A stretch of DNA of 40,612 nucleotides. It comes from Hyphomonadaceae bacterium. Its GTDB lineage: Bacteria; Pseudomonadota; Alphaproteobacteria; Caulobacterales; Aquidulcibacteraceae. Each line of letters starts with the position of its first letter. Within the stretch, counting starts at the first letter, position 1. Shown here one piece after another: positions 28,023 to 33,628 of the stretch. The notes beneath the pieces were generated by a model, which saw nothing but the letters and a program-made list of their open reading frames with translations, ran no database searches and was not told where the DNA came from. The position numbers and the translations under genes are program-made. The stretch is taken from the NCBI GenBank assembly GCA_022841905.1, contig JALHQO010000017.1:1-40612 (forward strand). The letters run 5' to 3'.

Positions 28023-30080
28023 ATGCCACATCTGACACGCCGCGCCGTCACCGCCTCTTCGTTTGCGCTCCTGGCCGGTTGCGCCAGCGGCTCCGGCGGC
28101 GCCTCGCCAACGCCGCGCGGACAGCCCGCCATCGGCGCCTTCGGCATCGACATGACCTCGATCGATCCGAACGTGAAACCGGGCGACGATTTCTTCGAGT
28201 ACGTGAACGGCGCGTGGATGCGTAACAACACCATCCCCGAGGACCGCACCTCGTGGGGCACCAATGACATGCTCATCGTCAAAGCCGAGCATGACGTGCG
28301 CGCGATCATTGAAGAAACCGCAGCCAGCGGCGGCGCCCCAGGCTCCAACGCCCGAAAAATCGCCGACTTCTACAACGCCTATCTCGATCACGACGCCATC
28401 GACGCACGTGGCCTCGCGCCCATCCAACCGGCGCTGGCGCAGATCGCGGCGTTCCGCACGCATGAAGATGTGGTGCGTTTCGTCGGCACGCCGGGCAATG
28501 GCGCGTCGTTTCCGATCTCCATTTTCATCGGCCTCGATGAGCGCAATCCCGATCGCTACCTGACGCAGATGACCCACGGCGGCCTCGGGCTGCCGGAGCG
28601 CGAATATTATCGCCGCGCCGACCGCCAGATGCCCGAACTCCGCGCCGGCTACGAAGCCGCGTGCGCGAATGTGCTCGGCCTCGTCGGACAAAGCGATGGC
28701 GCTGGCAAAGCGCGGGCGATCATGGCGCTTGAAACGCAAATCGCTGAACTGCACTGGCCGGTCGCCGATCGCCGCGAACGCGAGCGCACCTATAATCTGA
28801 TGAGCAAGGCGCAAGTGCGCGCGCTGGCGCCAGCTTATCCGTGGGACGCGCATTTCGACGCGCGCGGGCTAAGCGCTGCCGACGAGATCGTCGTCGCCGA
28901 ATTGAGCGCTACCGGGCCGCTGGCGAACCTCGTCATGGCGACGCCGGTCTCGACCTGGCAGAGCTACATGACTTGGCACTATGTCCGCGCCCGCGCCGCC
29001 CTGCTGCCACGCACGCTCGATGACGCGGTGTGGGATTTCTACGGCCGCCAACTGAGCGGCGCGCAACGTCAGCGCGACCGCTGGCAACGCGCCATTCAAG
29101 CGACAAACGGCTCACTCGGCGAAGCGGTCGGCGAGCTTTACGTCGCCCGCCACTTCCCGCCCGAAACCAAGGCGCAAGCGCTTGTACTGGTCGAAAACAT
29201 GCGCCGCGCTTATGGCGACCGCATCGACAACTCGCCCTGGATGTCGGCCGAAACCAAAGTGCTGGCGCGCGAAAAGCTCGCCACCTTCCGCCCCAAGATC
29301 GGCTATCCTGATCGCTGGAAGGACTATTCAGGCTTCGACGTCCGCGCCGGCGACGCGTTCGGCAATGCGCATCGCTACGCGCTTTGGGATTGGGCCAACG
29401 ATCTCGCGCGCTTGGGCCGCCCGAGCGACCGCGAAGAGTGGTTCATGGTCCCGCACGCGGTGAACGCCTATTACAATCCGCCATTCAACGAGATCGTCTT
29501 CCCTGCCGGCTATCTGCAGCCACCACTCTTCGACCCGAACGCAGACCCGGCAGTCAACTACGGCGCCATAGGCGGCGTCATCGGCCACGAAATGGGTCAC
29601 GGCTTCGATGACCAGGGCGCGAAGTCCGATGCGAATGGCGTGTTGCGCGATTGGTGGAACGAAGACGACGTGCGCCGCTTCCGCGAAGTGACGGATCGCT
29701 TGGCCGATCAGTACAGCCAATTCGAACCGCTGCCCGGCCTGCGCGTGAACGGCCGCCTCTCGCTCGGTGAAAACATCGGCGATTGCGGCGGCCTGCAAGT
29801 GGCGCTGCACGCCTATCGCATCTCGCTCAATGGCGAAGAGCCGCCAGTGCTCGAAGGCACGACCGGCCTGCAACGCTTCTTCATGGGCCGCGCGCAGCAC
29901 CGGAAAATCATTCAGCGCGAACAAGCCTTGCGCAATCAGGTGATGACCGGCCCGCACTCGCCGGCGCGCTATCGCATCAACGGCCCGGCGCGCAACATGG
30001 ATGCTTGGTACGAAGCGTTCAACGTACAACCAGGCGATGCGCTCTACCTGCCGCCGGAGGAACGCGTCACGATTTGGTAA
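28023..30080 (+). CDS. M13-family zinc metallopeptidase (PepO/neprilysin-like), predicted lipoprotein
   Basis: 685 residues. Signal with a twin-arginine look and lipobox (LTRRAVTASSFALLAGC, Cys20), so an exported lipoprotein. The M13 N-terminal domain starts at MTSIDPNVKPGDDFFEYVNG. The catalytic region has the zinc motif GHEMGHGFDDQGAKSD (HEMGH near residue 522) and the third ligand in LSLGENIGDCGGL. The C-terminal CxxW of eukaryotic members is absent, as in other bacterial ones. M13 enzymes cut small peptides. It lies between ruvA and ruvC, on the opposite strand. Confidence 0.95.
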   Translation: MPHLTRRAVTASSFALLAGCASGSGGASPTPRGQPAIGAFGIDMTSIDPNVKPGDDFFEYVNGAWMRNNTIPEDRTSWGTNDMLIVKAEHDVRAIIEETAASGGAPGSNARKIADFYNAYLDHDAIDARGLAPIQPALAQIAAFRTHEDVVRFVGTPGNGASFPISIFIGLDERNPDRYLTQMTHGGLGLPEREYYRRADRQMPELRAGYEAACANVLGLVGQSDGAGKARAIMALETQIAELHWPVADRRERERTYNLMSKAQVRALAPAYPWDAHFDARGLSAADEIVVAELSATGPLANLVMATPVSTWQSYMTWHYVRARAALLPRTLDDAVWDFYGRQLSGAQRQRDRWQRAIQATNGSLGEAVGELYVARHFPPETKAQALVLVENMRRAYGDRIDNSPWMSAETKVLAREKLATFRPKIGYPDRWKDYSGFDVRAGDAFGNAHRYALWDWANDLARLGRPSDREEWFMVPHAVNAYYNPPFNEIVFPAGYLQPPLFDPNADPAVNYGAIGGVIGHEMGHGFDDQGAKSDANGVLRDWWNEDDVRRFREVTDRLADQYSQFEPLPGLRVNGRLSLGENIGDCGGLQVALHAYRISLNGEEPPVLEGTTGLQRFFMGRAQHRKIIQREQALRNQVMTGPHSPARYRINGPARNMDAWYEAFNVQPGDALYLPPEERVTIW

Positions 30081-30213: not shown

Positions 30214-30684
30214 ATGTCGGATAAGAAGCGTTTGAATCGCCGGTCGTTCTTGGAACGCGTTGCCGGCACGGCCGCTCTCGTTGGCGGCGCTGGTGCATTG
30301 GTCACCGGGGAAGCCGCAGCACAAAACTACACCGGCCGCACCGATAATGACGGCGGCTCTTACGCCGACCGCGCCGGTTACGGCCGCACCGGCCTTACCG
30401 ACAGCGATAGCGGCAACGGCGCCGACCGGGCCGGCTACGGCCGTGGCGGCGCTCGCACCAGCGGCATCACCGATAACGATCCGAGCGATCCGGCCGGCAA
30501 CGGTCGTGGCGGCGGCGGTCGTGGCCGCACCGGCCTGACCGACAGCGACGGCGGCGGCAACGCCGACAATGCCGGCAATGGTCGTGGCGCAACCCGCAAC
30601 AGCCCGAGCGGTGTCACGGACGGCGACAGCGGCTCCTATGCCGACCGCGCAAGCTACGGTCGCGGCCCGCGTCGCAACTGGTAA
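30214..30684 (+). CDS. Tat-exported small repeat protein, possible oxygenase substrate
   Basis: 156 residues, family not named. Twin-arginine signal: NRRSFLERVAGTAALVGG with cleavage near GEAAAQ (residue ~37). The mature part is five imperfect repeats of 19-26 residues with consensus [ST]-G-x-T-D-x-D-x-[GS]-x3-D-x-A-[GS]-[YN]-G-R-G: e.g. TGRTDNDGGSYADRAGYGR and TGLTDSDSGNGADRAGYGRG. Repeat 3 is the most degenerate. No cysteines and no hydrophobic core, so it is unlikely to fold as a normal globule. Asp spacing (D1, D3, D9) recalls calcium-binding loops. The next gene, a JmjC oxygenase, starts 9 bp after the stop, indicating one transcript and perhaps cytoplasmic modification before Tat export. 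Confidence 0.8.
   Translation: MSDKKRLNRRSFLERVAGTAALVGGAGALVTGEAAAQNYTGRTDNDGGSYADRAGYGRTGLTDSDSGNGADRAGYGRGGARTSGITDNDPSDPAGNGRGGGGRGRTGLTDSDGGGNADNAGNGRGATRNSPSGVTDGDSGSYADRASYGRGPRRNW
30331..30666 (+). repeat. Five tandem coding repeats (TDxDxG...ADxAGYGRG)
   Basis: Repeat starts in the protein are near residues 40, 59, 82, 106 and 131. The invariant positions are T-D-x-D early and A(G/S)(Y/N)GRG late; spacer length varies by Gly/Arg-rich inserts. Copies differ at DNA level, so the array is not a recent slippage product. Confidence 0.7.
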
Positions 30685-30693
30685 GTTCCGACT

Positions 30694-31872
30694 GTGCAAA
30701 ATAGCGAGCCTTGGCTCGAGGACCCGCTTGGCTACATCATTGGCGCCGAGCGGGTCGCGAGCTTTCACGAGAAGATCTACGAGCGCGAAGCGCTGGTGGT
30801 GCATCACAATGCGCCCGAGCGCTTTCGCGGTCTGATCTCGATCGCCGACATCGACCGCATCGTCACCGGCTTCGACTTGAAGCGCGGACAACTCGCCATG
30901 GCTGACGCCTCGCGCGAGATGAGCGAAGACGAATATGTCGACGCGGCGGGCTTTATCGATCGTGGCGCGGTCTCCGATCTCTACCGCCGCGGCGCCACCA
31001 TCATCATGAACCAAGCGCACCAGTTGGAGCCGCCGCTGGCGCAGCTCTGCCGCGGGCTGGAGCAGACGTTCTCGTCACACATACAGACGAACCTCTATCT
31101 GACGCCGCCCAGCGCGCAGGGCTTTCGCACTCATTACGACAATCACGACGTACTGGTGATCCAGATCGAGGGTGAGAAGGCCTGGCGGCTTTACGAAAAG
31201 CCGGTCGACACGCCGTTCCGGGGTGAAAACTTCGAGTCCGGCAAGCACCCATCCGGCGAGCTGAAGCAAGAGTTTCTGCTCAAAGCCGGCGATTGCGCTT
31301 ACGTCCCGCGCGGCCTGATGCACGACGCGCAGACCTCGGGCGATGCGCCGTCGCTGCACATCACTGTTGGCCTCATCACCCGCACCTGGGCCGATCTCAT
31401 CCTGGAAGCGGTCTCTGAAGCCGCGCTGCGCTCGCCGGAACTGCGCCGCAGCTTGCCCGCAGGGTTCGCACGCCGCGATTTCGATCGCACAGCCGCGCGC
31501 GCGCATCTCGCAAAACTCGCCGCCGATCTCGCGCGCGACATCCAGCTCGATCCCGCGATGGATCTCTTGGCTGACACCTTCACGCGCTCGCGCGGCGCCG
31601 CCAATCGCGGCTCAATCTTGAGCGCCGGCGCCGCGCCTCAGCCGGGCGAACTGTTCAAAGCGCATGAGCGCGTGCCGTTCCGCATTGCCGAGGATGGTGA
31701 CAGTGTCGTCGTCATCTGCCCAGGCGGCGAACTGACCTTCCCGTCAGAATCGCGCGCCGACATCGAATGCGCGCTCGGCGGCAAGCTGTTCACGCTCGGC
31801 GATCTCAAAGGCGAAAAGCCCGAAGGCATGATGGGCACGTTCCTGGCCTACGGCCTGATCGTACGCGACTAG
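30694..31872 (+). CDS. JmjC/cupin-4 (ROX-type) 2-oxoglutarate oxygenase
   Basis: 392 residues from GTG 30694. The JmjC core has HxD in FRTHYDNHDVLVIQIEGEKA (His147, Asp149) and the distal His in CAYVPRGLMHDAQTSG (His210), the Fe(II) triad in the spacing of bacterial YcfD, the ribosomal protein L16 arginine hydroxylase. The C-terminal ~170 residues match the position of the dimerisation and winged-helix parts of that family. ROX enzymes hydroxylate Arg or His in ribosomal proteins. Here, adjacency to the repeat-protein gene suggests that protein as substrate instead; this is inference, and an L16-type target is not excluded. Confidence 0.85.
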   Translation: MQNSEPWLEDPLGYIIGAERVASFHEKIYEREALVVHHNAPERFRGLISIADIDRIVTGFDLKRGQLAMADASREMSEDEYVDAAGFIDRGAVSDLYRRGATIIMNQAHQLEPPLAQLCRGLEQTFSSHIQTNLYLTPPSAQGFRTHYDNHDVLVIQIEGEKAWRLYEKPVDTPFRGENFESGKHPSGELKQEFLLKAGDCAYVPRGLMHDAQTSGDAPSLHITVGLITRTWADLILEAVSEAALRSPELRRSLPAGFARRDFDRTAARAHLAKLAADLARDIQLDPAMDLLADTFTRSRGAANRGSILSAGAAPQPGELFKAHERVPFRIAEDGDSVVVICPGGELTFPSESRADIECALGGKLFTLGDLKGEKPEGMMGTFLAYGLIVRD

Positions 31873-31874
31873 GG

Positions 31875-32372
31875 CTACGCGCCCGCCCGTCGCTTAAATC
31901 CGCAATGGGCGGCGTGGCAGAGCGCTACCCCCAGCGCATCCGCAGCATCGGCGGTGACATCGCCCGCTGTCGGCAACAGGCGGCGCACCATGAATGCGAT
32001 CTGAGTTTTGTCGGCGCCGCCTGAGCCGACCACGGCTTTCTTGATCGTCGTCGGCGCATATTCGGCCACCAGAACGCCCCGCCGCGCCGCCGCCGCCAAC
32101 GCCACGCCGCGCGCTTGGCCGAGCGCCAACGCTGCGCGCGCGTTGGAGTTCACGAACGTCTCTTCGACAGCGCATTCGTGCGGATTGTGCTGATCGATCA
32201 CCGCGCCAAGCTCTTCGAGCAAGACGAGCAAACGCGAGGCCAGTTGCTGTTGCTCCGGCGGCTTGATCACGCCGTGCGCAACGTGGCTCAGCCGCGACCC
32301 CTCGCTCAGCACCAAGCCCCAACCGCAACGATTGAGGCCGGGATCGATGCCGAGGATCAAAGTGGCCGTCAT
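31875..32372 (-). CDS. ruvC: Holliday junction resolvase RuvC
   Basis: 165 residues. RNase H-fold endonuclease that cuts Holliday junctions symmetrically. Catalytic acids are visible: Asp10 in LILGIDPGLNRCGWG, Glu70/71 in CAVEETFVNSNARAA and the Asp pair in TADAADALGVALCHA (142 and 145). ATG 32372 overlaps the stop of the O-antigen-ligase-like gene (ATGA), so the two are translationally coupled. It is colinear with, but distant from, ruvA and ruvB. Confidence 0.96.
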   Translation of the reverse strand: MTATLILGIDPGLNRCGWGLVLSEGSRLSHVAHGVIKPPEQQQLASRLLVLLEELGAVIDQHNPHECAVEETFVNSNARAALALGQARGVALAAAARRGVLVAEYAPTTIKKAVVGSGGADKTQIAFMVRRLLPTAGDVTADAADALGVALCHAAHCGFKRRAGA

Positions 32373-33628
32373 GCGTGATCCTTCTGCGCGCGCGCATCCA
32401 AGGCGAGTCGCGCCGCGACCGCTACGTAGATTGTCCAAAACAGATTGTTCGCCTGCAGCGCATGGCTTTCCGACAGCGTGTAAAGCGCAAACGCCGCCAG
32501 AAACGCCGGCGCCCAAAGGCCGGCGTCAGGCCGCATCACCGCGCCTGCCCCGCGCCACAGCGTCGCCGCCAGTTGCAGCGCAAACACCGCAACGCCGATG
32601 CGCCCGAGCCCGAGCGCCAGTTCAAGCCAGCTCGAATGCGCCGACGCCACTTGCCACGCCACCGCTTCGCGAACCCAATACGCTGGGCCATTCTCCGGCA
32701 GCCAGAATGCGTAGTAGCCGTAACCAAGCCAAGGCTGCGCAGCGACCGCGGGCGCAGCGGCTTCCCAAATATCGGTGCGCCCGGTCAGAGTCAGATCGCG
32801 GCCGAGCACAGCCACCAAGAGATCCGGCGCCAGCAGCACGATGCTCGCGCCAATCACGATCGCCGCCAGCGCGCTGGCGCACACCAGGATCGTCTGCAAC
32901 GGTCCGCGCCGCATCAGCGCGCACGCGCCCATGACGCAAAGCCCGAGCAAGCTCGCGACCAGCGCAGTCTTAGAAGTGGAGAGCAAAACCAACGCCAAAG
33001 CGCCGAGCGCCGTGACTGACCACAACACACGCCGGCGCGGCTCAACCCAAGCCGCCGCGGCGCATGCCGCAACACCAAGCGCCATGATGCCGCCGAGCGT
33101 GTTCTTGTGCGTCCACAAACCAGACCAAGCGCCCGGGTGTTCGAAACTCATGCGGCCAATGCTTGGCGCCACGGCGCCGAGCAGAAGCGAAGCCGCAACC
33201 AGCACAACGAACGCGCCTGCGATCACGGTGACGAGCTTCGCCCAATCATAGCGCCACGCCAGATAGAGTCCGAACGCCATCGTCAGCATGAGCCACACGA
33301 CGCGCCGCAACGTCGCCGCGCTATCGATCGACCAAAGCGTCGAGAGCCCCGCCAGCGCAATAAGCCCCATCAGCAGCGGCACAGCCATCGCCGTGCTCAA
33401 CGCTTGCGCGCGCGCACGCCAGATCGCCCAACCGAGAAACGCATAAACAGGCAGAAAGAAAATCCGCGCATAGCCGGGTGGTTCGGAAGCGCCCTGGCTC
33501 TGCGCCACCGCCGCGAAGAACGGTTCCGAGAATTGCGCCAGGCAGAGCGCCGCGGCGATCATTTCCCAACGCGCCGCGTCCGCGCGCGCAGGCGCGGCCG
33601 CGTCCATGGAGGCATGGGCGTAGGTCAT
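32369..33628 (-). CDS. O-antigen ligase/polymerase-like membrane protein
   Basis: 419 residues, about ten to twelve membrane helices, Wzy_C/WaaL class. The periplasmic loop carries the family marks LTGRTDIWEAAAPAVAAQPW, LGYGYYAFW and ASAHSSWLELALGLG, and an earlier loop has AWSGLWTHKNTLGGIM. Members join or polymerise surface glycans. No other glycan genes are in the window, so the substrate is unknown. ATG 33628 is chosen; GTG/ATG codons around it leave a few residues of doubt. It is directly coupled to ruvC. Confidence 0.85.
   Translation of the reverse strand: MTYAHASMDAAAPARADAARWEMIAAALCLAQFSEPFFAAVAQSQGASEPPGYARIFFLPVYAFLGWAIWRARAQALSTAMAVPLLMGLIALAGLSTLWSIDSAATLRRVVWLMLTMAFGLYLAWRYDWAKLVTVIAGAFVVLVAASLLLGAVAPSIGRMSFEHPGAWSGLWTHKNTLGGIMALGVAACAAAAWVEPRRRVLWSVTALGALALVLLSTSKTALVASLLGLCVMGACALMRRGPLQTILVCASALAAIVIGASIVLLAPDLLVAVLGRDLTLTGRTDIWEAAAPAVAAQPWLGYGYYAFWLPENGPAYWVREAVAWQVASAHSSWLELALGLGRIGVAVFALQLAATLWRGAGAVMRPDAGLWAPAFLAAFALYTLSESHALQANNLFWTIYVAVAARLALDARAQKDHA

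Follow-up and report, generated by a model that had tools for sequence, protein, structure and literature searches.

The ROX oxygenases (NO66/RIOX1, MINA53/RIOX2 and YcfD) have ribosomal proteins as their known substrates, and to our knowledge the bacterial JmjC protein hydroxylases with proven targets all act on the ribosome. Another JmjC enzyme, FIH, is described in the available parts of three reports (PMC3569879, PMC9189129, PMC9814778) as hydroxylating residues of ankyrin-repeat proteins, Asp included; one of them specifies L-Asp (PMC9814778). In the biphenomycin clusters, which belong to the ribosomally synthesised and post-translationally modified peptides (RiPPs), the JmjC-type proteins BpmG and PbsQ are encoded near the precursor and are proposed to hydroxylate it; the available part of that paper states that co-expression of PbsQ gave no further modification (PMC12257519). 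Here we analyse a gene pair in a 40,612-nucleotide stretch of DNA from a Hyphomonadaceae bacterium (contig JALHQO010000017.1 of assembly GCA_022841905.1; the whole stretch is hereafter called the window), in which the gene for a short repeat protein with a twin-arginine translocation (Tat) type signal precedes a JmjC oxygenase gene. The repeat gene and one subfamily of the oxygenase are found together across genomes, and the two genes probably constitute a single system, in which a cytoplasmic enzyme would hydroxylate the repeat units before Tat export. The features of the pair, all on the + strand, are as follows.

30214..30684 (+): repeat protein gene, 156 residues plus stop, ATG start, MSDKKRLNRRSFLERVAG at its start; proposed substrate
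30214..30324 (+): twin-arginine signal region, MSDKKRLNRRSFLERVAGTAALVGGAGALVTGEAAAQ; from the sequence, NCBIfam and a motif shared with relatives
30340..30387 (+): unit 1, TDNDGGSYADRAGYGR, spacer 5; from the sequence
30397..30444 (+): unit 2, TDSDSGNGADRAGYGR, spacer 5; from the sequence
30469..30507 (+): unit 3, TDNDPSDPAGNGR, short form, spacer 2; from the sequence, a spacer class seen in relatives
30538..30585 (+): unit 4, TDSDGGGNADNAGNGR, spacer 5; from the sequence
30616..30663 (+): unit 5, TDGDSGSYADRASYGR, spacer 5; from the sequence
30685..30693 (+): intergenic gap of 9 bp between the repeat gene and the oxygenase gene
30694..31872 (+): JmjC_2 (PF08007) oxygenase, 392 residues, GTG start; from Pfam and AlphaFold2, NO66-like fold
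31132..31140 (+): Fe ligands H147 and D149 (HYD); 43/43 relatives
31177..31179 (+): K162, aligned with a lysine of NO66; 43/43 relatives
31321..31323 (+): Fe ligand H210; 43/43 relatives

Co-occurrence of the repeat gene with one oxygenase subfamily

An enzyme alignment and a repeat alignment were each used to search identical draws of genomes from the order, the class and the phylum; in such searches the number of first-look candidates scored is limited, and weak or diverged repeats may be missed. Within the window's own family, 28 of 60 genomes yielded the repeat protein, and all 28 have a JmjC_2 match at E 5e-25 or better. Of the JmjC matches at these loci, 28 score at least 319 bits against the window enzyme, and 27 of them adjoin a repeat gene, the other (G041) lying at a contig end; four further matches, of at most 101 bits, have no adjoining repeat gene. 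In the order draw the enzyme subfamily is present in 59 and the repeat in 58 of 299 genomes, and all repeat genomes have the enzyme (58/58). The sole genome with the enzyme alone is again G041, which is 65% complete and whose enzyme is cut by the contig end. The class draw gave enzyme matches in 37 of 385 genomes at E 1e-30, the best match reaching at least 299 bits in 12 and at most 150 bits in 25. All 11 of the 385 genomes with a repeat fall among the 12 with strong matches; the 25 with only weaker JmjC_2 matches yielded none. Since the weak-match genomes have no repeat, the association is tied to the enzyme subfamily, and a general link between JmjC_2 proteins and the repeat is ruled out. 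In the phylum draw, the enzyme search and the repeat search returned the same six genomes of 239 (6/6).

The union of these three overlapping draws comprises 71 enzyme genomes and 69 distinct repeat genomes, none of the latter without the enzyme. Fisher tests gave 1e-61 for the order and 2e-20 for the class, values that relatedness makes far too small as probabilities. From these counts the pairing goes beyond chance, and chance adjacency is ruled out by the three draws. Thus, the enzyme-partner relationship put forward in the first-pass annotation is strongly supported, and repeat homologues regularly lacking the oxygenase, which it had named as a ground for abandoning the idea, were not encountered (0/69). 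The subfamily also extends to cultured genera, namely Brevundimonas, Maricaulis, Sphingosinicella, Parasphingopyxis and Neoroseomonas.

Adjacency was assessed at 72 named loci (L numbers) recovered by a scan for two peptide patterns of the enzyme subfamily, some of which are the same assemblies as genomes of the draws (G numbers). A repeat open reading frame (ORF) lies in the enzyme flank at 65 of the 72. The units are strict at 62 of these, where frame edges put the repeat gene no more than 300 nt away from the enzyme; L115, L116 and L127, which are gammaproteobacteria-like, have diverged DSDSSDQ units just upstream of it. Of the seven loci without an adjoining repeat, four (L094, L096, L100 and L138) start at a contig end, and three (L101, L108 and L113) have flanks that lack a repeat gene; the genomes of these three and of L138 carry repeat genes at other places. 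L121 and L138, from one metagenome-assembled genome (MAG), are apparently two pieces of a single enzyme gene. In the order draw, 56 of the 59 enzyme genomes have, among the matches listed, a repeat match no more than 1.1 kb away from the enzyme, the repeat row of G020 being taken from the earlier family search; of the other three, G240 and G248 have no repeat match among the matches listed, and the third is G041. Gene order or strand is altered in L092, L110, L114, L132, L135 and L136, with adjacency kept. The 'down' position labels of L125, L134, L139 and L292 stem from overlapping frames, and L273 is counted as having a flank, yet its contig stops 31 bp beyond the enzyme frame.

No other gene accompanies the pair to a similar extent. 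Across 28 hand-picked lineages, the enzyme cluster is present in 28 and the repeat cluster in 21; two unlabelled clusters (26 and 6 lineages) are each represented by a frame lying antisense to the enzyme gene. The ruv genes come next, in five closely related lineages, and beyond them no third gene recurs in this set. A Pfam scan of neighbours, made on 65 ORFs hand-chosen after a composition filter from 42 of the 72 loci, themselves picked by hand, revealed no function common to the 65 (among the matches listed, 25 of 98 families).

In the enzyme tree, L091, L093 and L104, which are sphingomonad or unclassified, fall within the Hyphomonadaceae-type clade (100/99), and the gammaproteobacterial L116 stands beside an alphaproteobacterial sequence (100/98); each of these loci has a repeat gene. 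These positions suggest transfer. Of the tree labels 'Hyphomonadaceae', those on L123 and L126 are incorrect and those on L075 and L085 unproven; L132 forms a long branch.

The oxygenase

PF08007 matches the window enzyme with E 5e-27 and 94.3 bits against a curated cut-off of 22, and H147, D149, H210 and K162 are identical in 43/43 aligned relatives. The NO66 lysine aligned with K162 is the one that binds 2-oxoglutarate. The AlphaFold2 model (predicted local distance difference test score, pLDDT, 92.7) is NO66-like and includes the ROX architecture beyond the JmjC domain. No signal peptide was seen in the enzyme when looked for by eye. Together with the gene arrangement, these data bear out the initial description of the locus as a five-unit, Tat-type protein of 156 residues ending 9 bp before a GTG-started JmjC protein with an intact HxD...H triad. 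The enzyme does not qualify as NO66 (RIOX1) itself, two of the residues that contact Rpl8 there, R297 and S421, being I/V104 and G226 by alignment in 43/43 relatives. The contact comparison covered R297, S421, N326 and Y328, and also N376, whose alignment is uncertain. Neither gene of the pair has an NCBIfam name above cut-off or a PADLOC match, which discards a named defence family.

Two Roseomonas-type loci (L140:2474-3697, L141:2582-3802) have, upstream of the repeat gene, an additional JmjC gene that is more distant (about 133 bits). The only frame holding both repeat and enzyme is in L134 (925-2511, +), where the start of a second repeat gene is in frame with the enzyme; the upstream repeat reading is lost ahead of the enzyme start, and a natural fusion is thereby rejected.

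The repeat protein

The window protein consists of a signal region, NRRSFLERVAGTAALVGGAGALVTGEAAAQ, and five TDxD...D..G.GR units. It matches no Pfam family up to E = 1, which sets aside EF-hand, thrombospondin-3 and RTX repeats, and a BLAST search of 72,556 plasmid records, with the low-complexity filter on, found no match. The repeat proteins of L116, L119, L297 and L302 have no Pfam match either. In NCBIfam only two Tat-type models respond, both below cut-off (TAT_signal_seq, 15.5 bits against 16.7), and NRRSFLE stands ahead of a hydrophobic stretch. The repeat consensus given in the first-pass annotation describes the units only loosely: ADRAGYGR stands in units 1 and 2 alone, and unit 3 is shorter.

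Unit statistics were drawn from 104 ORFs of 65 loci, chosen beforehand for having three or more [TS]Dx[DN] cores, a choice that partly conditions the conservation of T/S and of the first two Asp. With 0-12 residues allowed, the distance from TDxD to D..G.GR is 2 in 203 units, 5 in 356 and 6 in one. In leave-one-out counts, the three Asp are conserved at 99.5-100%, the second Gly at 99-100% and the first Gly at 94%; the Arg is kept in 90% of spacer-5 and 98% of spacer-2 units, the T/S position is mixed and the Tyr positions vary. Overall, 593 of 642 units contain the Arg, with L119 having it in only 1 of 22. The initial emphasis on Arg and Tyr thus fits less well, Asp being the residue that hardly varies. 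In 56 units from 23 loci, a Cys directly before the unit is matched by another directly after its Arg; the first occurs alone in one unit, the second alone in none, and 539 units have neither (under a looser unit definition, 25 units have a Cys solely after the core). Such pairs likely form a disulfide closing the unit into a loop. Many of these units are related and so not independent. The unit thus seems to have a fixed geometry, even if AlphaFold2 yielded no confident structure.

A Tat-type signal appears to be present in nearly all evaluable repeat ORFs. A strict RRxF[LMV] motif was found in 83 of 104 and RR with a hydrophobic stretch in 93; in five the stretch ahead of unit 1 is not long enough or is wrongly anchored, and the other six comprise four KR-type signals (L097, L103), one masked (L131) and L125, with RRSFL far upstream. 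A script scored eight repeat ORFs as lipobox-like. In L064-L068, second, unlinked repeat paralogues carry a Tat-type signal that ends, by eye, in a lipobox-like TGC, which suggests Tat lipoproteins. Other unlinked repeat proteins have additional C-terminal parts: a peptidase M23 domain in a 743-residue protein (L070:6046-8274, +; G040, contig C155) and a PG_binding_1 domain in L307:1858-2697 (-; G455, contig C63). Those of L297 and L299 end, by eye, in a charged, coiled-coil-like tail.

Genomic surroundings

In the window, the pair lies between a gene for an M13-like metallopeptidase, named by eye (28023-30080, +), and ruvC (31875-32516, -); ruv surroundings are seen again in Hyphomonadaceae and Maricaulis relatives. 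In gammaproteobacteria-like MAGs (L116:2977-8513, L127 and L115), the pair follows a PepSY_TM protein gene and is itself followed by a large gene, a probable TonB receptor according to the family table and its sequence (Pfam was run on L116). L115, whose gene lengths equal those of L127, is nonetheless labelled Dehalococcoidia, perhaps through a binning error. The two L116 neighbours offer at most a lead to an envelope role or metal binding.

A model for the pair and its alternatives

We propose that the oxygenase remains cytoplasmic and, using Fe(II), O2 and 2-oxoglutarate, hydroxylates side chains within the repeat units of its partner, which would then be exported by Tat. The Tat pathway exports proteins after cytoplasmic maturation. 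Modification would precede export because only then can a cytoplasmic enzyme of this type meet an exported protein. The likeliest site would be the beta carbon of a conserved Asp in [T/S]-D-x-D-(2 or 5)-D-x-x-G-x-G-R. Asp is our first choice for the modified residue, with a chance somewhat short of even; Arg follows well behind, and the remainder falls to another residue or another oxidation. As a weaker suggestion, the exported protein might serve in the envelope as a polyvalent acidic module, perhaps metal-binding, which some paralogues would join to peptidoglycan-acting domains. The model in its most specific form, that is, multi-site Asp beta-hydroxylation by a dedicated NO66-like oxygenase, producing metal-binding poly-hydroxyaspartate envelope chains of 13- or 16-residue loops in Pseudomonadota and Myxococcota, is tentative and rather unlikely to hold as a whole.

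Several observations weigh against the general proposal of hydroxylation before export. Two further NO66 contacts, N326 and Y328, are retained as N133 and Y135. No repeat was detected elsewhere in the assemblies of the contig-end enzymes L094, L096 and L100, nor in the twelfth strong-match class genome, G508, where 31 bp separate the enzyme from the end of its 5,968-base contig and both the 4.7-kb upstream flank and the rest of the assembly were searched. Fifteen order genomes have additional, unlinked repeat genes among the matches listed. Many loci are close relatives, or one assembly under two handles, and the counts overstate independence. For a Brevundimonas repeat region of the Cys type, AlphaFold2 gave no confident structure (pLDDT 33, 4 rows), some Asp positions are Asn in the diverged gammaproteobacteria-like units of L127, which stand outside the conservation count, and strict Asp conservation could mark metal ligands in place of the modified residue.

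The same pairing could have as its target the Arg at the G-x-G-R end of the unit, which would make the system an exported counterpart of YcfD, whose target Arg lies in a glycine-rich L16 loop. The ROX fold of the enzyme, the arginyl hydroxylase activity of YcfD, as described in the available part of one paper (PMC5862935), and the frequency of the unit Arg between glycines agree with this reading, which we find unlikely but not negligible; our preference for Asp comes from its retention where Arg has been lost and from the report, in the available source, that FIH, also a JmjC enzyme, hydroxylates L-Asp. The enzyme might also oxidise the repeats in some other way (cross-linking, cyclisation, desaturation or cleavage after hydroxylation) and give a RiPP-like product. 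Enzymes dependent on 2-oxoglutarate perform such reactions, the fixed spacers (2 or 5) and the Cys pairs on the flanks point to closed loops, and RiPP clusters contain JmjC enzymes in the portion of the paper available (PMC12257519); against this, the lineages and neighbouring ORFs scanned show no recurrent protease or extra modifying enzyme next to the two genes, and hydroxylation is the activity of the characterised ROX relatives, which leaves this outcome very doubtful.

It is also decidedly unlikely that the repeat protein is no substrate at all, the enzyme acting elsewhere, for instance on a ribosomal protein, and the linkage reflecting a shared need or regulation. The characterised close structural relatives all target ribosomal proteins, some repeat paralogues are unlinked, and the window genome has a uL16 target loop (motif R[MR]GKGKG, on another contig). 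However, the enzyme is present in every repeat genome found, even where unlinked, two of the NO66 contacts are changed, and the uL16 loop motif occurs at none of the 72 loci. L16 is universal in bacteria, and the subfamily is patchy although ribosomal proteins are universal; its presence in only 59 of 299 order genomes speaks against the alternative, raised at the outset, that the oxygenase tracks with L16. On the indirect grounds of patchy distribution and absent linkage, we reject L16 oxygenation as the main role. Hydroxylation of the repeat units before export remains our preferred explanation.

Relation to known systems

If correct, this explanation would add a bacterial JmjC enzyme whose dedicated substrate is an exported protein and not a ribosomal one, and a whole enzyme subfamily, including members from cultured genera, would gain a concrete candidate substrate. 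The Tat route of the repeat protein would be explained as well, because such a modification depends on Fe(II) and 2-oxoglutarate from the cytoplasm. The units would moreover supply short, naturally varied peptides for studying how ROX-fold enzymes choose residues. No description of this pairing was found in the open-licence literature searched, which does not prove its absence from print, and six motif strings were found there in two papers only, with titles on other subjects.

EF-hand, thrombospondin type 3 and RTX calcium repeats have an acidic DxDx...D pattern, and we know of no JmjC partner for them. The window repeats have this pattern in common with the calcium repeats, while the window protein has no Pfam match. 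With FIH and its ankyrin targets the proposed system would share a JmjC enzyme directed at a repeat protein. The nearest printed case found is the biphenomycin JmjC protein, as far as the available part of that paper goes. Here too the enzyme gene adjoins that of a candidate precursor, whose modification we infer; RiPP clusters, however, combine several enzymes with short peptides, whereas one enzyme is paired here with long Tat-exported repeat proteins. Unlike the ROX enzymes with their ribosomal substrates, the window enzyme is partnered with an exported repeat protein, and its subfamily departs from NO66 at the positions of R297 and S421. The fold is known and the chemistry probably so, and what is new is the dedicated partner family and the logic of its export.
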